From Spirosoma sordidisoli (GTDB taxonomy: Bacteria; Bacteroidota; Bacteroidia; Cytophagales; Spirosomataceae): a stretch of DNA of 64,000 nt. A program made the position numbers and the translations under genes. A model generated the notes under the pieces. The model was not told where the DNA came from. It did not search any database and worked only from the letters and a program-made list of their open reading frames with translations. Each line of letters starts with the position of its first letter. Position 1 is the first letter of the stretch. Location: positions 62,001 to 126,000 of the forward strand of contig NZ_SBLB01000006.1 in assembly GCF_004138325.1 (NCBI RefSeq), given 5' to 3'. Positions 38,052 through 61,880 of this stretch are shown in pieces.

Positions 38052-40897
38052 ATGCGAACACTTCTTCACACGTTTATTTTTTCGATTTGTCTCTTCCTGA
38101 CGGCACAGGCTCAGGTAGTTACCACCCAGCCCGCTTTTCCAACCGCCGACGCCGAGGTTACCCTGACCATCGATCTGAAATTAGCCACCGATAGCCGCGC
38201 CAAAGCCCTGCTCGGCAAAACGGACGATGTTTATCTCTGGTCAGGGGCAGGCACCTCCGAAACAGGCAATGCCTTTGAATTTCAGCCAGCGGGCCAGACC
38301 AACTTCAGCGCCCCCTTCGCGCCCGGCAAAATGACCGCCCTCGGCAATGACCGCTGGCAGATCAAACTTGTACCGCGTACGTACTTCGGTGTTCCTTCCG
38401 GCCGCCCCATCCGGAAACTGGGCCTGCTGCTCAAGAGTGGCAACGGCCAGGCGCAGACTGAAGACCTGCAGGTTACTATTTATGATGACAGCTTCAACCT
38501 GTCGCGGCTCTCGCCCAACCAGAAAGACTTCTACGTCGACGCCAGCCTGGACCTGCTCGTTCGGTATAAAACGTCCCGGCAGGCTACCTTCTCCCTAACC
38601 CTCGATGGTCAGCCCACGCCCGCGCTCCCCTCGGGCGACTCGGTACGAACCACGCTGAACACCGGCACCCAGGCCGGCGTTCGTCGGACGGCTATTCTGC
38701 GCGCCACCGCCACGGCGGCTTCGGCCGAGTCGGCAGCCGATACGTTCTACTTTACCGTAAAGCCCCAGCCGACCATTGCCGCGCTCCCCTCGGGTCTGCA
38801 GGATGGTATCAACTATACAGCCGCCAACCGGGGCGAAACCAAAGTGACGCTGGTGCTGTACGCGCCGAAGAAAAGCTTTGTTTATCTGCTCGGCGAGTTC
38901 AACGACTGGACCGTCAGCCCGGCTTACCTGATGAACCGCACCCCCGACGGCAACCGCTACTGGCTCGAGGTGTCGAACCTGCCCACCGGCGAAACCGCCT
39001 TCCAGTACCTGGTCGACGGCACCATCCCCGTTGGCGATCCGTATGCCGATAAGGTGCTGGATCGGAACAACGACCGGTTCATCACCCCGGCTACCTACCC
39101 CAACCTGAAACCCTTTCCCGAAAAAGCGCAGGGCAACGTGGTATCGGTACTTCAGCCCGCCCAGGCTCCGTTTACCTTCACCACTAATTTTCAGCGGCCC
39201 GCCGTCAACACCCTGGTTGTTTACGAACTGCTCGTGCGGGACTTTTCGGCCAGTCAGACCTTCAAAGCCGTGCAGGACAGCCTGCCTTACCTGAAGCGGC
39301 TGGGGATCAACACCATTGAACTGATGCCGATCATGGAGTTCTCGGGCAACAACTCCTGGGGCTATAACCCCATTTATTACTTTGCCCCCGACAAAGCGTA
39401 CGGCACCAAAAATGACCTGAAGCGGCTCATCGACGAAGCCCATAAACAGGGCATTGCGGTGGTGCTGGATATGGTGCTGAACCAGGCCGACTACGAGTTT
39501 CCGTACGTAAAAATGTACTGGGATGGCAACCGCCCCTCGGCCGACAGCCCTTTTTTCAACCAGCAGGCCACCCACCCCTTCAGCGTTTTCTTCGACTTCA
39601 ACCACGAAAGCGCCGATACCAAAGCGTTCGTAGACCGGGTGTGCCGGTACTGGCTGCAGGACTACCGGTTCGATGGCTTCCGGTTCGACCTCTCCAAAGG
39701 ATTCACGCAGAAAAACACGGGCGACAACGTCGGTGCCTGGGGGCGTATGATGCCAGCCGGGTGGCCATCTGGAAACGGATCTATGATCAGATTCGCGCTG
39801 TTGACCCAACGGCCTACGTCATTCTCGAACATTTTGCCGAAAACACCGAAGAGCGCGAACTGGCCGATTATGGCATGCTCTTCTGGGGCAATCATAACGG
39901 CGACTACCGGAGTGCGGCCCGCTCGGGGCAGGGCAACCTGTCGGGGATATCGTACCAGCAGCGCAACTTCCGGTCGCCGAACCTGATTGGCTATGCCGAA
40001 AGCCACGACGAAGAACGACTCGTGTACGACCTGCGCCAGAACGGCCAGACCCAGGGCAGCTACTCCATCAAAAACCTGCCCACCGCCCTCGACCGCGCCA
40101 AGCTGGCGGCAGCCTTCCTGCTAACCGTACCCGGCCCGAAAATGCTGTGGCAGTTTGGCGAGCTGGGCTACGATGCCTCCATCAACACCTGTCCCAACGG
40201 CTCCATCAGCGACGGGTGCCGCACCGATCCCAAACCCGTTCGGTGGAACTATTACCAGGAAGCCGACCGGCGGAAACTGTACAATGTCTACGCCGAGCTG
40301 ATCAAACTCAAAACCACCGTGCCGGCCTTTGCCAGCACCGATTTCTCCACCGATTTTGCCAACCCGGTTAAACGGCTGACCCTGCGCAGCTCGTCGGGAA
40401 CGGTTTTTCTGCTCGGCAATTTCGATGCGCGCGCGCAGACGGTCAACGCCGGTTTCCCTTCGGCAGGCACCTGGTACCACTACTTTACCGGCCAACCGGT
40501 AACGATTACCGACGCGGAGCAATCCGTTACGCTGGAACCCGGCGCGTTTCATCTGTACACGACCAGCCGCCTGCCTACCCCGCCGGCCGGGCTCGTCCCG
40601 TTCGCGCTGGTTCCCAGTCCCGTAACGGCCAGCGAACCCGACGCATCGGGACAGATTACGGTCTCGCCGAACCCGGTCGATAACCAGATGGTTATTGACG
40701 TGACGAGTTCGTACAGAGGTTTGGTAGAATTTAACCTCCTCAATGCGGGTGGCCGGTCAATCCAGACCGTGCGAAGCCAGAAGTCTGCCAGCCAGCTTCG
40801 GCAGCCGCTGGATCTGCACACCCTCCCCACCGGCTCTTACCTGCTCCGTGTACAGCAGGGCGACCGGCAACGAACCGTTACGGTATTGAAACGGTAA
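38052..40897 (+). pseudogene. Secreted GH13 alpha-amylase with T9SS sorting domain, frameshifted
   Basis: Two overlapping frames together encode one protein of about 948 residues. A signal peptide ends at AQAQ. Beta-rich N-terminal domains include an E-set/CBM48-like one around 270-350 (FVYLLGEFNDWTVSP). The GH13 barrel has the nucleophile Asp in FDGFRFDLSKG, the acid/base Glu in YVILEHFAE and the third Asp in AESHDEERL. A C-terminal T9SS sorting domain has SPNPVDNQMVIDV and TGSYLLRVQQG. The frame shifts after GDNVGAW at a run of five G (39739-39743). Six G would restore GAWGAYDASRVAIWKRI and a continuous frame. Without the extra base the protein loses the acid/base Glu and the sorting domain. 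It may be a sequencing error, a true mutation or phase variation. In context it is the surface amylase of the starch locus. Confidence 0.88.
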
Positions 40898-40966: not shown

Positions 40967-42925
40967 ATGACCCGATTTGGTCTTTTTCTGGCGTTCTTCT
41001 GGATGCTGGCTCTTACGGCGTCGGCTCAGGTTCGGGTAGAGGTGTCGGAGTACCCGGCGCTGTCGCCAACGGCATCGGGCCTGTTTATTGCCGGCGAGTT
41101 CAACAACTGGAACCCCGGCGACCCCCGATTTGCGCTCCGTCGGCAGAACAACGGTACCTACGCCATCACCTTACCCGATACGCTGCGCCGGTTCGAGTAC
41201 AAGTTTACCCAGGGCAACTGGTCGCTGACCGAGGGCGACAGCGACGGCCGGGCCGTGGCCAACCGGGTTTTTGAACGAACGCAGGCGGGCCCGGCTTTTG
41301 TCCGGGTACGTATCGAAGGCTGGGAACAGAAACCCATGTACCGCTTTGTGGTGACGGAGGTACCGGCCAACACCCCGGAAGACGCCACGCTCTACATTAC
41401 CGGCTCGTTTAACCGCTGGAATCCGCATGATGCGCGCTACAAACTCCAGCGGCAGGCCGACGGTACCTTCCGCGTCACGGTCTATAGCGACGCGCCCCTG
41501 CTCGAGTACAAGTTTACCCGGGGCAGCTGGGATGCCGTAGAAGGCCGCGAATCGGGAAAATCACGCCCAAACCGGACAGTAACCCGCACCGAAACCGGCA
41601 ACCAGGACATCGAGGTAACGATTCAGAGCTGGGAAGACCTCACCAGTACCTTCCAGTTTTACTCGGTATACGACCTGCTGATGCTGTTTTCGTGCTTTCA
41701 GGGGCTGCTGCTGCTCATTGCCATTCCGAGTATTCAGAACTACAACCGCGTTGCCAACCGCTGGCTGGTGGTCCTGATCGGCAGTTCATCGCTGTTCATT
41801 CTGCTGAAGGTTATCAGTGGCTACCGCGATGTAGCGCAGGCCTATACCAAACTCCTGCTGGTGCCGGACTTTATCTGGTTTCTGTACGCTCCGCTGTTCT
41901 ATTTCTACATCCGCCGGCTCCTGTTCGATGCGGGGTTACCCAACCGGCGCTGGGCCTATCACTTTATTCCGGTGGCCATTCAGTTTCTGGCGTACCTGCC
42001 CTACTTCCTGATGGAGAGTAAAATGTTCCAGCTCCGGATTGTCAACCAGGACCCGGTGCTGCGGGGGCTGTTTCTGGTTACGGGTTTTCTCGCGCTGGTT
42101 TTCAACGCGGTTTACTGGCTGAGCTGCCGCCGAACCATCCGGGCCTACAAAACCCATTACCAGACCAGCGTATCGTACGAGCAGAACCTCGAATACCTCA
42201 ACACGGTCCTTATCATCCAGGCCGTTTGCCTGACGCTCTGGACCTTCCTGTACGGGTTGGTACTGGTCAGCCGGCTGATGCCGTTCGATGTGCTGGTGCT
42301 GGCCGAAGGGAGCGTAGACACCATCTGGCTGGCCTTCTCGACCATCATCTATTTTCTGGGCTACGTGGCCGTTCACCAGCCGGAGATCTTCAAGATGCCC
42401 CAACCCCGGCTGGCCGACGCGCCCCCCGTCAGCTTTTTCGAGGATGTGGTACACCCCCTGAACGAGCCCGCTCCCGAGCCAGCCTTCGAGCAGGATAGCC
42501 TGCCGATACCGGTAGCCGCCGTCGATGCAGACCAGCGGCCCGGCACCCACAAGCCCGCTTCGGCGTTCGACCTCCCGAAATATCGCGACAGCCTGGAAGC
42601 CTACATGCGCGACCACAAACCTTACACGAACCCGAACCTGACCATCCATGAGCTGGCCAGCGGCTTGAAAATCCCCCCGCATGTGCTGTCGAAAGTCATC
42701 AATGAAGGCTTCGGCAAGAACTTCTTCGACTATGTCAACCAGTACCGGGTAGAGGAGTTCAAGCAACGCATGGACGACCCCCGCAGCCGTCAGCACACCC
42801 TGCTCAGCCTGGCGTTCGACGTAGGGTTCAACTCCAAATCGGCCTTTAACCGGGCGTTCAAAAAGCTAACCCACCAAACGCCGAAGGACTATTTCCAGAT
42901 GGCCAGCGAAGAGCAGCCTTTGTAG
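40967..42925 (+). CDS. Membrane-spanning AraC regulator with two starch-binding-like domains
   Basis: From ATG 40967 the protein has 652 residues. A signal peptide (1-21) is followed by two CBM20/48-like domains (about 22-119 and 123-222). Each has G-x-F-N-x-W-N-P and a late E-Y-K-F-T-x-G-x-W motif (IAGEFNNWNP, ITGSFNRWNP, LEYKFTRGSW). Seven hydrophobic segments lie between 234 and 470, placing the N-terminus outside and the C-terminus inside. A proline-rich linker (471-535) leads to an AraC-type double helix-turn-helix (540-645) with LTIHELASGLKIPPHVLSKVINE and AFDVGFNSKSAFNRAFKKL. It lies between the amylase and the SusC gene. I infer that it binds alpha-glucans outside the inner membrane and activates the locus directly. 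The upstream start at 40919 would spoil the signal peptide. Confidence 0.9.
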   Translation: MTRFGLFLAFFWMLALTASAQVRVEVSEYPALSPTASGLFIAGEFNNWNPGDPRFALRRQNNGTYAITLPDTLRRFEYKFTQGNWSLTEGDSDGRAVANRVFERTQAGPAFVRVRIEGWEQKPMYRFVVTEVPANTPEDATLYITGSFNRWNPHDARYKLQRQADGTFRVTVYSDAPLLEYKFTRGSWDAVEGRESGKSRPNRTVTRTETGNQDIEVTIQSWEDLTSTFQFYSVYDLLMLFSCFQGLLLLIAIPSIQNYNRVANRWLVVLIGSSSLFILLKVISGYRDVAQAYTKLLLVPDFIWFLYAPLFYFYIRRLLFDAGLPNRRWAYHFIPVAIQFLAYLPYFLMESKMFQLRIVNQDPVLRGLFLVTGFLALVFNAVYWLSCRRTIRAYKTHYQTSVSYEQNLEYLNTVLIIQAVCLTLWTFLYGLVLVSRLMPFDVLVLAEGSVDTIWLAFSTIIYFLGYVAVHQPEIFKMPQPRLADAPPVSFFEDVVHPLNEPAPEPAFEQDSLPIPVAAVDADQRPGTHKPASAFDLPKYRDSLEAYMRDHKPYTNPNLTIHELASGLKIPPHVLSKVINEGFGKNFFDYVNQYRVEEFKQRMDDPRSRQHTLLSLAFDVGFNSKSAFNRAFKKLTHQTPKDYFQMASEEQPL

Positions 42926-42973: not shown

Positions 42974-43010
42974 AACGTGCCATTTTTGTAAAATGGCACG
43001 TTCTTTTTTT
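42974..43010 (+). terminator. Terminator after the AraC-type regulator gene
   Basis: Twelve-base arms (42974-42985 and 42991-43002) with a 5-base loop are followed by C and seven T. They end the regulator transcript and separate it from the SusCDE operon, which has its own promoter. Confidence 0.85.
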
Positions 43011-43104
43011 CATATATAATCTACTGGTTTACAGTTTATTATAAATAATTTTAAAGTTTCTTAACACATTCCGAAAGTGGAACGACAGCGGGGAGAGGCA
43101 ATGG

Positions 43105-43112
43105 TACTTTTG
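43105..43112 (+). promoter_or_regulatory. Candidate -7 box of the SusCDE operon
   Basis: TACTTTTG matches TAnnTTTG and leaves a leader of about 70 bases to ATG 43185. There is no good -33 TTG, as expected for an activator-dependent promoter. An AraC-type site would be sought just upstream (about 43020-43100). Confidence 0.5.
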
Positions 43113-43184: not shown

Positions 43185-46100
43185 ATGATGAAACTCTTTT
43201 CACAAAGGTTTCGACGGGATGCTCGATCAGCTTCGCTCTGGCGGCTGGTCGTCATCGCGCTGTTATCCGTCGGCATTCACGCATCAGTACTCGCGCAGGG
43301 GGTAACCCTGACGGGGGTCGTTAAGGAGGCCGACGGTGTCCCGCTCCCCGGGGTTACGGTACAGGTAAAAGGTACCAACCGGGGTACGCAGACCAATGCC
43401 GATGGCTCCTATCAACTGACCAACGTACCGGCAGGGTCGGCGCTGATCTTTAGCTTTATCGGAAAAACCCCGCAGGAGGTGCTGGTCGGTAACCGCACCG
43501 CCGTCGATGTGGTCCTGGCCGACGATTCCAAATCGTTGCAGGAAGTCGTCGTGGTGGGGTACGGTACCCAGCGCCGGAAAGACCTGACCGGCGCCATTAC
43601 CTCTATATCGGCCGAAGAATTTCAGAAGGGCAACATTGTCAATCCCGAACAACTCGTGGCAGGTAAACTGGCCGGGGTCAGCATTACGCCCCCCAGCGGT
43701 CAGCCCGGCGGGGGGAGTACCATCCGCATCCGGGGCGGTTCGTCGCTGAACGCAAGCAACGACCCGCTCGTAGTTATTGACGGCGTACCGGTCGATAACA
43801 CCAACATCAGTGGGGCATCGAACGCCCTGAGCCTGATCAACCCGCAGGATATCGAAACCTTTACGGTTCTGAAAGATGCATCGGCAGCGGCTATCTACGG
43901 CGCCCGCGCAGCCAACGGGGTTATTCTGATCACGACCAAAAAAGGACGGCAGGGCGATCAGCTTCGGGTGAGCGTGAGCGCGCTCGGCTCCGTATCGCAG
44001 CTGGTCAATCAGGTGCCGGTGCTGTCGGCCGACCAGTTCCGCGATGTCATCGGGCAGACCGGTAATGCGGCTCAGCAGGCCCTGCTCGGCACCGCGAATA
44101 CCAACTGGCAGGATCAGATCTACCAGACCGCCCTCAGTGGCGACTACAACGCATCGGTTACCGGCTCGGTGAAGAACATGCCGTTCCGGGCTTCGTTTGG
44201 CTACCTGAACCAGAACGGGATTCTGAAAACCTCCAATTTCGAGCGTTTTTCGGGATCGCTGGGTCTCTCGCCCCGCTTCTTCAACAACCACCTGCGCGTA
44301 GACGTCAACCTGAAAGGGTCGATCATCAACAACGTATTTGCCGATCAGGGCGCCATTGGTGCGGCCGTGGCGTTCGACCCCACGCAGCCCGTTTATAGCG
44401 GCCAGGACACCTACGGCGGTTTCTTCGAGTGGCTCGACCCGGCTACGGGCCGGCCCAATACCCAGGCCACGCGTAACCCGCTGGGCCTGCTGATGCAGAA
44501 GCAGGACCTGACCACGGTAAAACGGAGCATCGGTAACGTTCAGTTCGACTATAAATTCCACTTCCTGCCCGAGCTGCGCGCCAACCTGAACCTGGGCTAC
44601 GACCTCTCCTCGTCGACGGGAACGATTTTCGTACCGGCCGATGCAGCCCTGCAGTTTAACCGCGGTGGTCAGAGCAGCCAGTCGGCGCAGACCCGCGATA
44701 ACAAAACCCTGGAGTTTTACCTGAACTACGTCAAAGACCTGCGCAGCGTGTCGAGCCGGGTCGATGTCACGGCCGGGTACTCGTACCAGGATTTCATCCG
44801 GAAGAGCCCGAGCTTTCCGGAGCTGACGGCCAACGGTACGGAGTTTACGCCCGCCGGCGTTCCGTTCGAGACCCAGTATACGCTGCTGGCCTTTTTCGGA
44901 CGGGCCAACTATACCTTCAAGGATCGCTATACGCTGACGGCCACCCTGCGCCGGGATGCAACCTCGCGGTTCAGCCCCGAAACGCGCTGGGGCTGGTTCC
45001 CATCGGCGGGTTTTGCCTGGAACATCAAAGAAGAGTCGTTCCTGCAGGGCGCCAAAGCCCTGTCGGCGCTGAAACTGCGCATCGGCTACGGGGTCACGGG
45101 TCAGCAGGATCTGCCCTCGGGCCTGAGCGACTACCCGTACCTGCCGCGCTACACCCTCAGCGACCTGACGGCTCAGTATCAGTTCGGCAATTCGTTTTAC
45201 CGGACGCTCCGGGCCGAAGGGTATGACGCCAACCTGAAGTGGGAAGAAACCCAGGCCCTCAACGCAGCCATCGACTACGCCTTCTTCGACGGCCGGATCT
45301 CGGGTAGCATCGACGTGTATCAGAAGACAACCAAAGACCTGCTGGCGACCATTCCCGTACCGGCCGGCTCGAACCTGACCAACCAGATCCTGACCAACGT
45401 GGGTAATCTGGAAAACAAAGGGGTAGAATTCACAATCAACACCAACCCCGTTCGGAACGAGCGCCACAACCTCGACGTAGGCTTCAACATCACCTACAAC
45501 CAGAACAAGATCACCAACCTGAGCAAAGTACCAAGCCCGAATGATCCGGGGGTGCTGGTGGGTGGCATCACGGGCGGAACCGGCAACACGGTACAGATCC
45601 AGACCGTAGGCTTCCCGACCAACTCGTTCTTTGTGTATCAGCAGGTATACGACGCATCGGGCAAACCGCTGGAAGGGGTTTATGTAGACCGCGGCCGTAA
45701 CGGCGAAACCACCGGCGACGGCAAGATCACCATCGACGACCGCTACCGCTATCAGTCGGCCAACCCGAAGATATTCCTTGGGTTTACGAGCCAGTACACC
45801 TACGGCAAGTTCAGCGCGGGTTTTGTGCTGCGGGGCAACATCGGCAACTACGTGTACAACAACGTCCGCTCGAACTACGGCGCCTACCGCAACTTCACCA
45901 ACGCGCTGGGCTTCAACGCCAACGGCTCACCGAACGTGCTCGAAACCGGTTTCGTCAACAATCAGTATTTCTCGGACTACTACGTAGAGAACGGCTCGTT
46001 CCTGCGGATGGACAACTTCAACCTGGGTTACAACTTCGGTAAGGTGAGCAACCGCCCCGGCAAAGGCATGAACCTGCGGCTGTCGGCTACGGCGCAGAAC

Positions 46101-46214
46101 GTCTTCGTGATCACCAACTACACAGGTCTCGATCCGGAAGTGTCGGGTGGTATCGACAACAACCTGTACCCCCGCCCCCGCATCATCTCGGCCGGTCTCA
46201 ATCTCGATTTCTAA
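43185..46214 (+). CDS. SusC/RagA-family TonB-dependent transporter
   Basis: This 1009-residue outer-membrane importer has a signal peptide to LAQ near residue 38. A carboxypeptidase-regulatory-like domain (VTLTGVVKEADGVPLPGVTV) is followed by the SusC signature VVVGYGTQRRKDLTGAITSI and the plug domain with RIRGGSSLNASNDPLVVIDGVP and AAIYGARAANGVILITTKKG. A large barrel completes it. SusC moves oligosaccharides across the outer membrane with TonB energy and a SusD lid. The partner SusD gene follows by 48 bases. Position in the starch cluster suggests maltooligosaccharides as substrate. Confidence 0.95.
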   Translation: MMKLFSQRFRRDARSASLWRLVVIALLSVGIHASVLAQGVTLTGVVKEADGVPLPGVTVQVKGTNRGTQTNADGSYQLTNVPAGSALIFSFIGKTPQEVLVGNRTAVDVVLADDSKSLQEVVVVGYGTQRRKDLTGAITSISAEEFQKGNIVNPEQLVAGKLAGVSITPPSGQPGGGSTIRIRGGSSLNASNDPLVVIDGVPVDNTNISGASNALSLINPQDIETFTVLKDASAAAIYGARAANGVILITTKKGRQGDQLRVSVSALGSVSQLVNQVPVLSADQFRDVIGQTGNAAQQALLGTANTNWQDQIYQTALSGDYNASVTGSVKNMPFRASFGYLNQNGILKTSNFERFSGSLGLSPRFFNNHLRVDVNLKGSIINNVFADQGAIGAAVAFDPTQPVYSGQDTYGGFFEWLDPATGRPNTQATRNPLGLLMQKQDLTTVKRSIGNVQFDYKFHFLPELRANLNLGYDLSSSTGTIFVPADAALQFNRGGQSSQSAQTRDNKTLEFYLNYVKDLRSVSSRVDVTAGYSYQDFIRKSPSFPELTANGTEFTPAGVPFETQYTLLAFFGRANYTFKDRYTLTATLRRDATSRFSPETRWGWFPSAGFAWNIKEESFLQGAKALSALKLRIGYGVTGQQDLPSGLSDYPYLPRYTLSDLTAQYQFGNSFYRTLRAEGYDANLKWEETQALNAAIDYAFFDGRISGSIDVYQKTTKDLLATIPVPAGSNLTNQILTNVGNLENKGVEFTINTNPVRNERHNLDVGFNITYNQNKITNLSKVPSPNDPGVLVGGITGGTGNTVQIQTVGFPTNSFFVYQQVYDASGKPLEGVYVDRGRNGETTGDGKITIDDRYRYQSANPKIFLGFTSQYTYGKFSAGFVLRGNIGNYVYNNVRSNYGAYRNFTNALGFNANGSPNVLETGFVNNQYFSDYYVENGSFLRMDNFNLGYNFGKVSNRPGKGMNLRLSATAQNVFVITNYTGLDPEVSGGIDNNLYPRPRIISAGLNLDF

Positions 46215-46262
46215 TCCACAGCCGACGGCTTGCAGTCAATCCGTCGGCTGTACTACAGAGCT

Positions 46263-47864
46263 ATGAACGTACTTACATCCATCACAAAAACCGGTGTTCT
46301 GGCCGCTTTGCTGCTCACGGCAGCCTCCTGCCTACAGGACCTCGACCGGCAACCGGTCTACGACGTCACGTCGGCGTCGGTATATAAAGACCCGGCCAAC
46401 TACAAACAGGTACTGGCCAAACTCTACGCCGTTCTGGCCGTGAGCGGGCAGCAGGGCCCGGCGGGCAAACCCGATATTGCCGGCATTGACGAAGGGTTCT
46501 CCAACTACCTGCGTCAGTACTGGAAAGCCCAGGAGCTGACGACCGACGAAGCCGTTATCGGCTGGAACGACGGGTCGCTCCCCGACTACCACAACATGAA
46601 CTGGTCGTCGAGCAATGAGTTCATCACGGCCATGTACAACCGGATTTTCTACATGGTCACCGCTACCAATGAGTTCATCCGCGAAACCACCGACGCCAAA
46701 CTGGCCGAACGCGGTATTACGGGCCAGGCCGCTACCGACGCCAGAACGTTCCGGGCCGAAGCTCGTTTTCTGCGCGCCCTGGCCTATACGCACGCCATCG
46801 ACCTGTTCGGCAGCGTACCCTTCGTGACCGAAACCGATGCGGTGGGGTCGTTCCAGCCGCGCCAGATCAGCCGGGCCGAGCTGTTCACCTACGTTGAAAC
46901 CGAGCTGAAAGCCATCGAAGAAGAGATGGCCGCGCCCCGCGCTGCGGAATACGGCCGGGCCGACCGGGCAGCGGCCTGGACCCTGCTGGCCAAACTGTAC
47001 CTGAACGCGCAGGTCTACACCGGCACCGCCCGCTATACCGACGCCGTGACGTATGCCAACAAGGTGATCCAATCGAACGCCTACGCCCTCGACGCCGACT
47101 ACAGCAAGCTCTTCCTGGCCGATAATGGCAGCTCGCGCGAGATTATCCTGCCCGTCACCTTCGACGGTACCCGGACCAAAACCTACGGAGGCATGACATT
47201 CCTAGTTCACGCGGCTGTGGGCGGCAAGATGAGTCCGACCAGCTTCGGGATTAACAGCGGCTGGGCCGGTCTGCGTACTACCAAAGGACTGGTTGACTCG
47301 TTTGCCGACCCCTCGGGCCGGACCGACACGCGGGCACTGTTCTTCACCGATGGCCAGAATCTGGAAATCAACGAGGTGCTGAACAAGTTTGAAGACGGCT
47401 ATGCCATTACCAAATTCAAGAACGTAACCTCGGCTGGCCAGCCCGGCTCTGACGTTGAAGGGAACTTCCCCGATACGGACTTCCCGCTCTTCCGGCTGGC
47501 CGATGTCTATCTGATGTACGCCGAAGCGGTACTGCGGGGCGGTACGGGGGGCGACGCAGCTACGGCGCTGACCTACGTGAACCTGCTTCGTCAGCGGGCC
47601 TACAAGGGCACGACGGGCAACATCACAGCCACGGCCCTGACCCTCGACTTCATTCTGTCGGAGCGCGCCCGTGAACTGTATTGGGAAGGCCACCGCCGAA
47701 CCGACCTCATCCGCTACGGCCGCTTCACCGAAGCTACGTACCTCTGGCCATTCAAAGGGGGCGTAAAAGCCGGACGGGCCGTCGAGTCGTTCCGTACTGT
47801 TTTCCCGCTGCCCGCGGCCGACCTTATTGCCAATCCAAATCTGAAACAGAATACAGGCTACTAA
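46263..47864 (+). CDS. SusD/RagB-family glycan-binding lipoprotein
   Basis: From ATG 46263 the protein has 533 residues. A lipobox (LLLTAASC) anchors it outside. The TPR-rich SusD body shows YNRIFYMVTATNEFIRE, AEARFLRALAYTHAIDLFGSVP, LLAKLYLNAQVYTG and the closing ERARELYWEGHRRTDLIRYGRF. It forms the lid of the SusC transporter and captures oligosaccharides at the surface. The SusE gene follows by 75 bases. Confidence 0.95.
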   Translation: MNVLTSITKTGVLAALLLTAASCLQDLDRQPVYDVTSASVYKDPANYKQVLAKLYAVLAVSGQQGPAGKPDIAGIDEGFSNYLRQYWKAQELTTDEAVIGWNDGSLPDYHNMNWSSSNEFITAMYNRIFYMVTATNEFIRETTDAKLAERGITGQAATDARTFRAEARFLRALAYTHAIDLFGSVPFVTETDAVGSFQPRQISRAELFTYVETELKAIEEEMAAPRAAEYGRADRAAAWTLLAKLYLNAQVYTGTARYTDAVTYANKVIQSNAYALDADYSKLFLADNGSSREIILPVTFDGTRTKTYGGMTFLVHAAVGGKMSPTSFGINSGWAGLRTTKGLVDSFADPSGRTDTRALFFTDGQNLEINEVLNKFEDGYAITKFKNVTSAGQPGSDVEGNFPDTDFPLFRLADVYLMYAEAVLRGGTGGDAATALTYVNLLRQRAYKGTTGNITATALTLDFILSERARELYWEGHRRTDLIRYGRFTEATYLWPFKGGVKAGRAVESFRTVFPLPAADLIANPNLKQNTGY

Positions 47865-47939: not shown

Positions 47940-49244
47940 ATGAAAACACGGTTTTACAATCTGCTCGTCATGGGCATGGTGTTACTGACGCTGGGGGCGT
48001 GCGAGAAAGAAGACGTGCGGGCGGTTCTGAACCCCGGTTCAGCTCCCGTAGTGACGCTCTCCTCGCCAACGGTCGTGCTGACCAAAGAGAATGCCGACCA
48101 GGACGCGCTGACCGTATCGTGGGCGAAACCCGACTACGGCTTCAATGCCCCGGCGGCCTACACTATCCTGATGGATAAAAAAGGGGGCGACTTCACCAAC
48201 GCCATTACGGTATCGACGGGTAGCGAGCTTCGAAAAACGTTTAAAGCGTCGGAGCTGAATCCTATGTTGCTGAAGCTGGGGCTGGTAGCCGGTACGGCCG
48301 CCGATATCGATCTGAAAGTACAGTCGGACCTGGGTCCCGGCGCGGTACTGATGTCGGCCGTGAGCAGCGTAAAAGCAACGCCTTACCTGGACAAGCTGGA
48401 CCTGAGCAGCACCTGGGGACTGGTCGGCAGCGCTACCGCCAACAGCTGGGATGGCCCCGATCAGCCCTTCTACAAAACCGACCAGAACAACGTGTTCGTG
48501 GCCTACGTAACCCTGACCGATGGGGAAATCAAGATACGGCAGGACAACAAATGGGACGTAAACTACGGCGGCACCGGCGGCACGCTGAAAGCTGGGGGCG
48601 ATAACATCGTGGTGAAAGCAGGTAACTACCGCGTTACCATCAACATGACCGCGCTGACCTATGCCATTGAGCCGTTCTCGTGGGGTATTGTAGGCAGTGC
48701 CGCTCCCAACGGCTGGGACGGTCCCGACGCGCCTTTTGTCTACGATCCCTCTACCGACCAGTGGCGGGCGGTGGTAACGCTCAAGGATGGCGACATCAAG
48801 TTCCGGCAGAACAACGCCTGGACCGTCAATTACGGGGGTGCGGCCGGTACGCTGAAAGAAGGGGGCGATAACATTGCCGTGAAGGCAGGTACCTACCTCG
48901 TCACGGCCGATTTCAAACCGACGGGTCTCAAATACACCATCGAGCCCTTTAACGCCTGGGGGCTGGTCGGCAGCGCGGCCCCCAAAGGCTGGGACGGTCC
49001 GGATGCTCAGTTTCAGCCCAGCTTTGTGGAAGAAGGTATCTGGACGCTTAGTAAGGTAACGCTGAAAGATGGCGAGATCAAATTCCGTCAGAACAACAAA
49101 TGGGACGAAAACCTGGGCGACAGTAACGCCGATGGTATCCTGGAAAAAGGAGGTGGTAACATCACGGTGAAAGCCGGTATCTACGACATCCAGCTCGACC
49201 TGACCAACGCCAGCCGACAGACCTACAAGCTGACAAAAAAATAA
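47940..49244 (+). CDS. SusE-type starch-binding lipoprotein with three tandem repeats
   Basis: This 434-residue lipoprotein has a lipobox (LLTLGAC). An N-terminal SusE domain (about 30-150) contains VTLSSPTVVLTKENADQDALT and YTILMDKKG. Three near-identical binding repeats follow (about 159-246, 248-337 and 340-432), each starting WG-[LI]-VGSA and containing WDGPD, the K-[FI]-RQ-[DN]-N block and AG-x-Y near its end. These match the SusE/SusF carbohydrate-binding modules, in which the aromatic W and the K/R face the glucan. Here all three modules are present and alike, suggesting recent duplication. It would enrich starch at the cell surface. Confidence 0.93.
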   Translation: MKTRFYNLLVMGMVLLTLGACEKEDVRAVLNPGSAPVVTLSSPTVVLTKENADQDALTVSWAKPDYGFNAPAAYTILMDKKGGDFTNAITVSTGSELRKTFKASELNPMLLKLGLVAGTAADIDLKVQSDLGPGAVLMSAVSSVKATPYLDKLDLSSTWGLVGSATANSWDGPDQPFYKTDQNNVFVAYVTLTDGEIKIRQDNKWDVNYGGTGGTLKAGGDNIVVKAGNYRVTINMTALTYAIEPFSWGIVGSAAPNGWDGPDAPFVYDPSTDQWRAVVTLKDGDIKFRQNNAWTVNYGGAAGTLKEGGDNIAVKAGTYLVTADFKPTGLKYTIEPFNAWGLVGSAAPKGWDGPDAQFQPSFVEEGIWTLSKVTLKDGEIKFRQNNKWDENLGDSNADGILEKGGGNITVKAGIYDIQLDLTNASRQTYKLTKK

Positions 49245-49328: not shown

Positions 49329-49335
49329 TTTGCAT

Positions 49336-50868
49336 ATGACCGAAGCGTTACTCCACCATCGTTTGCCCCACGCCCGCCCCATCGGACATACCGGCGTCCA
49401 TTATGAAATCTTTGTCCGTTCCTTTGCCGACTCTAACGGCGACGGCATCGGCGATCTCAACGGCGTTACCAACAATCTCGATTATTTACAGGATCTGGGC
49501 GTATCGGCCATCTGGCTCATGCCCATCAGCCCCTCGCCCAGCTACCACAAATACGACGTTACGGACTATTACGGCATCGATCCGGAATACGGCACGATGG
49601 ATGACTTCCGGCGGCTGATTGCCGAAGCCCACAAACGAAACATTGCCGTACTGATCGATCTGGTCCTGCACCACACCAGCACCCAGCACCACTGGTTTCA
49701 GGAAGCCCGCAAAGGACCTGACAATCCCTACTGGCCCTACTACAAATGGCTCACGCCGGCCGAGATCAAAGCCCGCAACCTGGCCACCCGCGACATTACG
49801 GCCGACTCGGGCGAACGCAACCCCTGGCATGCGGTACCGGGCGCTGCCTACCCCGAACGGTATTATGGCATGTTCTGGCAGGGTATGCCCGATCTGAATT
49901 TTGAGCACCGGCCCCTGCGCGAGGAGGTATTCCGCATTGGCCGCTACTGGCTTACCGAGGTGGGCGTCGACGGGTTCCGGCTCGACGCGGCCCGCCACCT
50001 GTACCGCGAATTCGAAGAGCCGAAAAATCACCAGTTCTGGGAAGAGTTTCGTCAGGAGATGACGGCGGTGAAGCCAGACATGCACCTGATCGGTGAAGTA
50101 TGGACCCGCCCCGAACGGGTAGCGCCCTACTACCGCGGTCTGCACGCTACGTTCAACTTCGATTTTGCGCTGTCACTGGCCGAAGTTATCCGGCAGGAAG
50201 ACGATACCGAAGACCTGATCGAATTTCTGGACCACGTACAGGGCGCCTACGAACACGTCAGCCCCGACTTCATCGACGCGCTGATCCTGTCGAATCACGA
50301 CCAGGAACGCATCGGCAGCACCCTGCGGGCCAATACGAACCATCTGAAAGTGGCCGCTAATCTGCTGCTCACCCTGCCCGGTAATCCATATCTGTACTAC
50401 GGCGAAGAAATTGGGATGCTGGGCCGCAAACCCGACGAGTTCATCCGCGAGCCATTTCTGTGGAACACCCGTGACCTCGACAAACAACGCACCTACTGGC
50501 AACGGGGCCGCTACAGCACCAGCAAAGCCATAAAGCCCCTGGCCCGTCAGCAAACCGACGCCGACTCGCTGTTCTGCCACTATAAACGGCTGATTCAGTA
50601 TCGGAACGCCCACGCCGTGCTGAACGACAACCTGAGCCGGCTGGAGCAGACCGGAATCCGGCAACGGGGCGTCGTGGCGTTTATCCGCAAGTCGGCTACG
50701 GGCGGGCGGGTGTTGCTGGTACATAACCTGACGGCGAACCCCATTGAGGTGGTTTTCTCGCCCGACGAGGAATGGTGCCGCTGTATTGTTTTTGCAACCC
50801 GTGAGGGTGCCTCCTTCAACGACGACCGGGTGCGGGTGCCGGGGTATAGCTGTGTGGTGGTGGAATAA
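49336..50868 (+). CDS. GH13 alpha-glucan hydrolase without signal peptide
   Basis: From ATG 49336 the protein has 510 residues and no signal peptide. Motifs include VHYEIFVRSFADSNGDGIGDLNG, VDGFRLDAARHLY (nucleophile Asp), LIGEVWTRPE (acid/base Glu) and LSNHDQERIGS (third Asp). A small C-terminal beta domain ends RVPGYSCVVVE. It resembles amylase and oligo-glucosidase-type GH13 enzymes. It likely degrades imported maltooligosaccharides in the cytoplasm or periplasm. Trehalose-type substrates cannot be excluded. Confidence 0.92.
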   Translation: MTEALLHHRLPHARPIGHTGVHYEIFVRSFADSNGDGIGDLNGVTNNLDYLQDLGVSAIWLMPISPSPSYHKYDVTDYYGIDPEYGTMDDFRRLIAEAHKRNIAVLIDLVLHHTSTQHHWFQEARKGPDNPYWPYYKWLTPAEIKARNLATRDITADSGERNPWHAVPGAAYPERYYGMFWQGMPDLNFEHRPLREEVFRIGRYWLTEVGVDGFRLDAARHLYREFEEPKNHQFWEEFRQEMTAVKPDMHLIGEVWTRPERVAPYYRGLHATFNFDFALSLAEVIRQEDDTEDLIEFLDHVQGAYEHVSPDFIDALILSNHDQERIGSTLRANTNHLKVAANLLLTLPGNPYLYYGEEIGMLGRKPDEFIREPFLWNTRDLDKQRTYWQRGRYSTSKAIKPLARQQTDADSLFCHYKRLIQYRNAHAVLNDNLSRLEQTGIRQRGVVAFIRKSATGGRVLLVHNLTANPIEVVFSPDEEWCRCIVFATREGASFNDDRVRVPGYSCVVVE

Positions 50869-60341: not shown

Positions 60342-61880
60342 TTAATACCGGTCGTCGTCTTCGTCTTCCTCTTCGTCGTCTTCGCCGAACTTGCTACCGG
60401 GGCTGAACATCGACCCGAGCAGGTCTTTGAACGACTGGCCCGTATCCATCGCTTTTTTGCCGACGAGCGAATGCTCGGCGAGTCCGTGCAGGGCAAACTC
60501 CATCATGAACAGTTTTTCGGGCTTGCTCAGTCGCGACTGAAACTGATCGACTACATCGTCGAGGCCGTCGATGGTGCGGAGCCGGGCTTCGTAATCGCGG
60601 TTGGTCAGGTCGTTGAGGATGTCCATCGTATTGCCATCGCCAAACCAGTCGGTAATCTTTTTGTAGGGATTGCCGCGTTTGTCTTTCTTGGCTTTTTCCG
60701 GATTGGGGAAGTACTGCAGAAACTGGTTCCGGATGGCTTTCCCGATCAGGTTCTGGGCCACAATGACGGGACCCTCTACCTCACCTTCGTAAACGAGCTC
60801 GACCTTACCGCAGATAGCCGGCACAACGCCGTACAGATCGGCAATGCGCACGTAGGTATCTTTCTCCCCGTTCAGCAACGCCCGGCGTTCGGCCGCCGAC
60901 AGCAGGTTTTCGTAGGCCGAGATGGTCATCCGGGCCGACACTCCGCTTTTGGCATCGACATATTCGCTTTCCCGGGCTTCGAGCGCAATCTGCTCGATGA
61001 GGTCGGCAATGATGTCGTTGGTTTTGACCATGCCTTTCTGCTCGGTCTTGACCACGGCTTCCTGCATCGTAATTTTCTTCCCGATCTCGATCGATTTCGG
61101 ATAGTGGGTCACGATCTGGCTGTCGATCCGGTCTTTCAGCGGAGTTACGATGCTACCCCGGTTCGTATAATCCTCAGGGTTAGCCGTGAAGACGAACTGA
61201 ATATCGAGGGGCAACCGAAGTTTGAAACCCCGAATCTGGATGTCGCCTTCCTGAAGAATGTTGAAGAGCGAAACCTGAATACGGGCCTGCAGATCGGGTA
61301 GTTCGTTGATGACGAATATGCACCGGTGCGACCGCGGAATCAGCCCAAAGTGAATGGTTCGCTCGTCGGAATACGGTAGTTTCAGCGTGGCGGCTTTGAT
61401 CGGGTCGACATCCCCGATCAGGTCGGCTACCGACACATCGGGCGTAGCCAGTTTTTCCGTGTAGCGATCGTTGCGGTGAAGCCAGGCTATGGGCGTGTCA
61501 TCCCCCTTCTCCGCAATCAGATCAAGCGCGTAACGCGACAGTGGCTCGAGCGGATCGTCGTTCAGTTCAGAACCGGCCACGAACGGAATGTACTCGTCGA
61601 GCAGATTCACCATCAGGCGGGCAATCCGGGTTTTAGCCTGTCCGCGTAACCCGAGCAGGTTGATGTGGTGCATCGACAGAATAGCCCGTTCAACGTCGGG
61701 AATGACGGTGTCTTCGTACCCCCATATTCCTGGAAACACCACTTCTTTATCCTTGATGCGTTGAATCAGGTTATCGCGCAGTTCCTGCTTGATGGATCGG
61801 GATTCGTAGCCGGCGGCTTTCAGCTCGCCCAGGGTCGTAATTTTGGTTAAATTAGATGATTTCAGGCTGCGATAGTTCAT
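60342..61880 (-). CDS. MoxR/magnesium-chelatase-type AAA+ ATPase
   Basis: This 512-residue protein has Walker A GLRGQAKT (77-84), a Walker B-like CIFVINEL and the DIQFVFTANPEDY sensor region. The last 15 residues are an acidic tail (DDEEEDEDDD). The overall layout is that of ChlI/MoxR-type ATPases, not a sigma-54 activator. Its likely partner is the VWA protein at 54913-56016. Together they would act as a chaperone-type insertase, perhaps for a metal centre; the client is unknown. Confidence 0.9.
   Translation of the reverse strand: MNYRSLKSSNLTKITTLGELKAAGYESRSIKQELRDNLIQRIKDKEVVFPGIWGYEDTVIPDVERAILSMHHINLLGLRGQAKTRIARLMVNLLDEYIPFVAGSELNDDPLEPLSRYALDLIAEKGDDTPIAWLHRNDRYTEKLATPDVSVADLIGDVDPIKAATLKLPYSDERTIHFGLIPRSHRCIFVINELPDLQARIQVSLFNILQEGDIQIRGFKLRLPLDIQFVFTANPEDYTNRGSIVTPLKDRIDSQIVTHYPKSIEIGKKITMQEAVVKTEQKGMVKTNDIIADLIEQIALEARESEYVDAKSGVSARMTISAYENLLSAAERRALLNGEKDTYVRIADLYGVVPAICGKVELVYEGEVEGPVIVAQNLIGKAIRNQFLQYFPNPEKAKKDKRGNPYKKITDWFGDGNTMDILNDLTNRDYEARLRTIDGLDDVVDQFQSRLSKPEKLFMMEFALHGLAEHSLVGKKAMDTGQSFKDLLGSMFSPGSKFGEDDEEEDEDDDRY

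Follow-up and report, generated by a model that had tools for sequence, protein, structure and literature searches.

The predicted sensor gene and its locus

The window analysed here is the whole 64,000-nucleotide stretch of Spirosoma sordidisoli DNA (contig NZ_SBLB01000006.1, positions 62,001 to 126,000), and coordinates below are counted from its first letter. A predicted sensor-regulator gene lies in it between a secreted amylase and a susCDE set. The features of the locus are as follows.

38052..40897, + strand, secreted GH13 amylase with a T9SS sorting tail, present as two ORFs (38052–39986 and 39641–40897)
40967..42925, + strand, putative one-component sensor-regulator gene, 652 aa, with signal peptide, two CBM20/48-type modules, seven hydrophobic segments and an AraC helix-turn-helix
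40967..41026, + strand, predicted signal peptide, residues 1–20, from hydropathy, ending TASA
41027..41335, + strand, predicted starch-binding module 1, residues 21–123, likely contacts W48, K79, W85 and N99
41336..41641, + strand, predicted starch-binding module 2, residues 124–225, likely contacts W151, K182, W188 and N202
41678..42376, + strand, seven hydrophobic segments, residues 238–470, from hydropathy
42575..42907, + strand, AraC-type DNA-binding domain, residues 537–647
42974..43002, no strand assigned, inverted repeat, candidate distal operator, core 42977–42999, GTGCCATTTT...AAAATGGCAC
43074..43088, + strand, promoter-proximal half-site AAAGTGGAACGACAG, candidate activator site
43105..43112, + strand, -7 box TACTTTTG, 31 bp from the half-site, start to start
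43185..46214, + strand, susC homologue (TIGR04056, E 9e-230), predicted first gene of the regulated operon
46230..47864, + strand, susD homologue (PF07980, above cut-off), TTG start as called, uncertain
47940..49244, + strand, susE-type outer-membrane protein (PF14292, E 4e-27; PF16411)
49330..50868, + strand, GH13 alpha-amylase family enzyme (PF00128, E 1e-92) with a SusG_C domain (PF23915)

The start codon at 40967 is backed by a 97%-identical homologue from Spirosoma lacussanchae, whose ORF opens at the equivalent methionine. By hydropathy the N-terminal hydrophobic segment covers residues 4–22, with an AxA-like cleavage site at its end, judged by eye. At the other end of the protein HTH_18 was matched at residues 563–644 (Pfam, E 2.8e-14), identifying a C-terminal domain of the AraC/XylS type. 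No Pfam match to a histidine kinase or receiver domain was found in the sensor up to an E-value of 1. The order of signal peptide, two CBM modules, seven segments and AraC domain, proposed in an earlier sequence-only reading of this DNA, was borne out by Pfam, hydropathy and fold models.

The position between a secreted amylase and a SusCDE set, also noted in that reading, was confirmed, except that the amylase gene is split by a frame break near 39738, where the window copy is one base shorter than its relative. The intact relative, a Spirosoma lacussanchae gene that is 97–98% identical, is a single ORF of 948 aa; the break in the window may be a mutation or a sequencing error. Compared with the SusD model NF033071, the susD product gave an E-value of 2.9e-135 and 452 bits, below the model cut-off of 725.

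The predicted starch-binding modules

A repeat profile placed the module limits at residues 21–123 and 123–225. Module 1 carries a CBM_48 match at residues 33–81 (E 1.3e-5; 25.8 bits, above the Pfam cut-off of 22.4), and module 2 an AMPK1_CBM match at residues 141–184 (E 6e-4; 20.3 bits, below the cut-off of 26.8). When the structures were predicted and the N-terminal region was compared with CBM20/48 and AMPK-beta domains, both modules modelled as starch-binding folds of the CBM20/48 type, as the sequence-only reading had anticipated. The fold assignment consisted of a Foldseek list followed by re-alignment of its listed matches, and covers the families listed there.

The likely contact residues are strongly conserved. 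Across 109 repeats from 63 homologues, the first tryptophan was present in 109, the lysine in 108, the second tryptophan in 106 and the asparagine in 104. We take this quartet to be equivalent to W100, K126, W133 and N150 of AMPK; the W-K-W positions fall within the alignment to AMPK, and the asparagine falls outside it. AMPK-beta modules were reached weakly by sequence, at E 0.4 with the single protein and E 0.65 with profile A3, while a value of 1.4e-4 came from a profile that included L021, an AMPK-like multi-module protein. Chance similarity to CBM families was ruled out by the fold, the conserved residues and the 63 homologues.

From their conserved residues and predicted fold, one or both modules probably bind alpha-glucan. 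The sensed ligand is most likely a periplasmic malto-oligosaccharide rather than starch, since modules carried by a protein of the inner membrane should have no contact with starch granules. The original proposal of starch sensing agrees with the CBM20/48-type fold and with the alpha-glucan loci described below, and is amended as to the ligand itself.

Membrane core and topology

When the hydropathy rule that gave seven segments for the sensor was applied to the 63 homologues, 47 had seven segments, 12 had six and four had eight; the predicted odd number was thus recovered in most, with this simple rule giving six or eight in 16 of the 63. In the 47 seven-segment homologues, lysine and arginine residues numbered 439 in inside loops against 229 in outside loops, and the inside number was the larger in 43 of the 47. 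From a cleaved signal peptide and an odd number of segments, the modules are predicted to be periplasmic and the AraC domain cytoplasmic, in one chain, and the C-terminus would be inside even if the signal were uncleaved. Hydropathy and the Lys/Arg bias both fit the earlier placement of starch binding outside and DNA binding inside, where 'outside' is to be understood as the periplasm. The membrane core matched no Pfam family above cut-off, and the full-length model was poor over the membrane part (pLDDT blocks of 30–53, about residues 224–533); how the helices are coupled to DNA is therefore a guess.

Homologues and their neighbours

We assembled 63 sensor loci from 27 genera, 46 encoding two-module and 17 one-module proteins. 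All 63 proteins have the AraC domain, and the membrane-core profile was matched in 56. These homologues were chosen by similarity to the query, and so show conservation, not frequency. Some match at 1e-12 was obtained in 129 of 390 genomes from the order, many of them to the CBM part alone, and such CBM-only matches also occur in other long ORFs, for example in G403 and G418. A phylum-wide search of 395 genomes, which scored the best three candidates per genome so that weaker members elsewhere are possible, returned at least four full or near-full matches, including the window's own, all from the same taxonomic order. The other matches listed were to the core plus AraC domain, to the AraC domain alone or, in genome G166, to the CBM part.

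A GH13 or SusD gene was detected by blast within five ORFs of the sensor for 54 of the 63 homologues, compared with one of 20 module-free relatives (Fisher 5e-11). Over the same distance the 63 loci contained GH13 in 45 cases, SusC in 37, SusD in 32 and SusE in 27, and the 20 module-free relatives had one GH13 neighbour, no SusD and two distant SusC-like genes. Nine sensors were left with no blast-detected GH13 or SusD within five ORFs. Two of these have GH13 by Pfam, which adds a GH13 gene beside the sensor at L141 and L142 (the 20 controls were compared by blast), and three (L127, L129 and L130) lie on short contigs. The gene next to the sensor encoded SusC at 23 loci, GH13 at 15 and another protein at 25, these last including four GH53 genes that precede susC; the Hymenobacter neighbour at L014 is a GH13 of the cyclomaltodextrinase type (Pfam). 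The same domain order near alpha-glucan genes in other genomes, which had been named as a check, was thus observed, most homologues being at alpha-glucan loci.

The sensor and its SusD were also found together. Among 79 genomes of the same family, 30 had both the sensor and this SusD (counted at E up to 1e-80), one (G765) had the sensor only, two (G652 and G700) had SusD only and 46 had neither (Fisher 3e-18; both searches scored the best 3–4 candidates per genome). The sequences are related, and these P values therefore overstate independence. The loci of G652 and G700 (L163 and L164) are starch-type susCDE loci in which no sensor match and no operator were found.

At four loci (L094, L105, L114 and L118) a gene of the endo-galactanase family GH53 (Pfam) lies between the sensor and susC, and GH13 genes are present there too. 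A galactan sensor, suggested by these genes, was rejected because SusC, SusD, SusE and a GH13 of the cyclomaltodextrinase type come next in these loci, as judged by blast and, for L187, the continuation of L105, by Pfam.

Related CBM proteins were encountered outside the sensor group. L146, L149, L150 and other Hymenobacter loci have one divergent from a starch-type susC; blast found the CBM part alone, and these proteins were rejected as sensors. The secreted esterase fusion was scanned in L146 only, where Pfam identified a CBM, an esterase domain (PF00756) and a T9SS tail. Likewise rejected, since blast matched CBM parts only, were the triple-CBM proteins of family f59 (L144, L145 and L162); they are secreted or lipoprotein-like, with apparently three tandem modules and no further domain by blast. 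In two Aquimarina loci (L019 and L020) the gene for a module-free 7TM-AraC protein is immediately preceded by an independent ORF, about 100 aa long, that encodes one CBM48-like domain. The window's own genome encodes a 367-aa protein (L143, C24 near 501870) with one such CBM followed by an esterase-like part, judged by eye.

A candidate operator at the susC promoter

A repeat-motif search upstream of 43105, as proposed in the sequence-only reading, yielded a conserved operator-like half-site at the susC promoter. The half-site AAA(G/C/A)TGGN(A/G)CG occurred in the gap after the sensor at 33 of the 63 loci, in 13 genera, compared with one of 231 other gaps; the former were scanned together with 60 bp of the next ORF and the latter without. 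TAnnTTTG is the Bacteroidota -7 consensus. Such a box was present within 80 bp of the half-site in 26 of the 33 loci, always at 31–32 bp (L091 has a second at 44), and the exact box was not found within 80 bp in the other seven (L014, L018, L092, L097, L098, L107 and L115). In the window the box starts 80 bp before the susC ATG. On the strength of this conservation AAAGTGGNRCG is the probable operator, placed 31–32 bp before the -7 box.

A second element, the palindrome GTNCC...GGNAC formed by two inverted half-sites, was found in 25 of the 63 sensor gaps and 6 of the 231 others, and the half-site and palindrome together in 22 sensor gaps and none of the 231. From the right arm of the palindrome to the proximal site the distance in these 22 loci was 76–104 bp, mostly 80–85 or 90–94, counted start to start and not centre to centre. 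The spacings showed helical phasing (P about 0.002, kinship ignored). The window's inverted repeat is followed by a T-run and scores as a terminator, and may also terminate the sensor transcript.

The composite AAAGTGGNRCG-N20/21-TANNTTTG, its spacing fixed from loci already seen, gave 28 hits in 27 of 390 genomes, against four for the reversed pattern. Of the 28, 23 lay within about 4.5 kb of a sensor. Among the five distant hits, three were inside ORFs and one was about 22 bp before an ORF. The fifth, in G670, is an unlinked site before a 902-aa gene whose product has an alpha-amylase domain (32 bits against a cut-off of 22) and a T9SS tail; the box starts 92 bp before the ATG, and an imperfect distal pair, missed by the strict palindrome pattern, lies upstream, with 90 bp between the start of its right arm and that of the site. 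Within the window's family the exact composite was present in 20 of 31 sensor genomes and none of 48 sensor-free genomes. When one mismatch was allowed with a tighter box, in 31 sensor and 31 sensor-free family genomes, all 19 exact hits were in sensor genomes, three sensor-free genomes were hit, all imperfectly, four hits besides the amylase copy lay away from the sensor in sensor genomes, and the reversed pattern gave 13.

The site behaves as an operator would, staying with susC when gene order changes. At L117 and L119, where susC is divergent, it lies before susC on that strand, and at L109 it precedes a 375-aa gene directly upstream of susC, 3.9 kb from the sensor. Where a GH53 gene is present, the site is found between the sensor and GH53, unchanged in L094 and as AAAATGG in L114; in L105 and L118 it is altered, judged by eye. 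No site was found in G652, which belongs to the same genus, retains susC, susD, susE and the amylase, and has no sensor match.

The operator was not found in loci of the f71 lineage (L121–L128, L131–L132 and L134–L140), nor near the sensor in L104, L120, L129, L130, L133 and L141. Either another site serves there or the link does not hold, and the operator claim is therefore limited to the f1 and f3 loci and one f2 locus (L107, with no clear -7 box). The window's genome has one exact site and, with up to one mismatch, nine, compared with 21 when the pattern was reversed; a broad regulon there was rejected. Rejected too was a second operator for the window's amylase, the only other match within two mismatches being at 61538. 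The half-site with two mismatches had two matches in the window against 6.4 expected, and the case for an operator rests on conservation instead.

Proposed mechanism

The analysis supports the sensor as a one-component transmembrane alpha-glucan regulator. For the full reading from ligand to operon, a one-component transmembrane transcription factor for alpha-glucan use, we estimate a probability of about 0.77. Malto-oligosaccharides imported into the periplasm would bind one or both CBM20/48-type modules, and the seven-helix membrane core would relay the change to the cytoplasmic AraC domain. That domain, probably dimeric, would bind the AAAGTGGNRCG half-site beside the susC promoter directly. 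In many loci it may also bind the inverted half-site pair 76–104 bp upstream, looping the DNA between. Binding would switch on the susCDE–GH13 operon, activation being more likely than repression.

The opposite sign of control is unlikely. A free protein would then keep susC off until released by sugar binding, and a distal palindrome and proximal site 76–104 bp apart could indeed form a repression loop. A site just upstream of the -7 box is, however, in an activator-like position, and the half-site holds that position at a nearly fixed 31–32 bp. In addition, SusR is described as activating its operons (PMC3878776), and PULs as being activated by SusR-like, HTCS or ECF systems (PMC6874557).

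We also regard it as improbable that sensing lies not in the CBM modules but in the membrane core, with a small ligand or lipid bound there and the modules only tethering or tuning a protein that would still regulate the locus. Module-free 7TM-AraC relatives do exist, module number varies between one and two among homologues, and the window's genome contains 22 matches to the sensor, itself included, most to the AraC part only and a few also to the membrane core. Yet the W, K, W and N residues are near-invariant in the 109 repeats, and the alpha-glucan setting goes with the presence of modules.

Very improbable is an assignment of the site to another regulator, with the distal palindrome merely the terminator of the sensor gene: although the window palindrome has a T-run and a terminator score, and T-runs occur in several other loci, none of the 48 sensor-free family genomes, G652 with its susCDE and amylase included, has the exact composite site, the palindromes of L086, L088, L089 and L091 have no T-run, and a similar imperfect pair precedes the unlinked amylase gene, where no sensor gene ends.

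The sensor is real and conserved, a well-supported alpha-glucan regulator of apparently undescribed architecture. Because its ligand module and its DNA-binding domain can both be recognised and its predicted operator is short, it makes kinase-free transmembrane glycan signalling directly testable, and it offers a handle on the many module-free 7TM-AraC proteins. Specialists should find most of value in the paired prediction of a ligand module and an operator. The protein could also serve as a compact malto-oligosaccharide biosensor.

Comparison with known systems

Published systems are compared here as the cited papers describe them. SusR of Bacteroides thetaiotaomicron (BT3705) resides in the membrane, its sensor facing the periplasm and its DNA-binding domain the cytoplasm; it binds maltose in the periplasm and activates starch uptake genes (PMC3878776). 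The DNA-binding domain is reported not to resemble any other known type significantly, and the operators predicted for SusR consist of direct repeats with a spacing of 67 or 77 bp (PMC3878776). The mechanism of SusR has been called undefined (PMC6874557), and a Pontibacter PUL with a named SusR has been described (PMC11206854). The available text of PMC10766802 and PMC11206854 contained nothing on a CBM-7TM-AraC architecture, and no such regulator, nor any CBM fused to a membrane transcription factor, was found in the literature searched, mostly outside subscription journals.

Like SusR, the sensor is predicted to be membrane-borne, with a periplasmic sensing part, a cytoplasmic DNA-binding domain and control of starch genes. 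Set against the published description of SusR, it differs in its clear AraC domain, its CBM20/48-type modules and its seven segments. In 22 of its loci the operator spacing is 76–104 bp, compared with 67 or 77 bp for the direct repeats of SusR; the lengths differ and the logic is similar.

Hybrid designs with an AraC output offer a second comparison. HTCS also join a periplasmic glycan sensor to an AraC output in one polypeptide and control PULs (PMC3878776), whereas the sensor has no histidine kinase or receiver match by Pfam up to E 1 and falls outside that class. Predicted HTCS sites average 21 bp apart (PMC3878776), against 76–104 bp at the sensor loci. In the module-free 7TM-AraC proteins of Bacteroidota, too, a membrane core is followed by an AraC domain, the closest of them reaching about 30% identity across the two; they differ in having no CBM match (blast), and 19 of the 20 examined had neither GH13 nor SusD nearby. 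The modules share their predicted fold with CBM20, CBM41 and the CBM48 of AMPK-beta, and the W-K-W residues align with AMPK. To our knowledge, CBM20, CBM41 and CBM48 modules work as parts of enzymes, kinases or adaptors.

Three classes of PUL regulator have been named, SusR-like, HTCS and ECF sigma/anti-sigma (PMC3878776, PMC6874557). We see about even odds that a fourth stands beside them, in which a seven-helix receptor is joined to an AraC domain and the periplasmic sensor is exchangeable. If so, no member of the wide 7TM-AraC group before the CBM version would have had a ligand and an operator that could be predicted, and DNA would be bound from the membrane through a loop of about seven to ten helix turns. 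The sequence-only reading had set the protein apart from SusR as an unusual case of sensing without a kinase. That contrast is not supported as it was put: SusR itself is transmembrane, with a periplasmic sensor and cytoplasmic DNA binding (PMC3878776), and because it is already a kinase-free transmembrane starch regulator the principle was known. What is new in the sensor is its different protein architecture.
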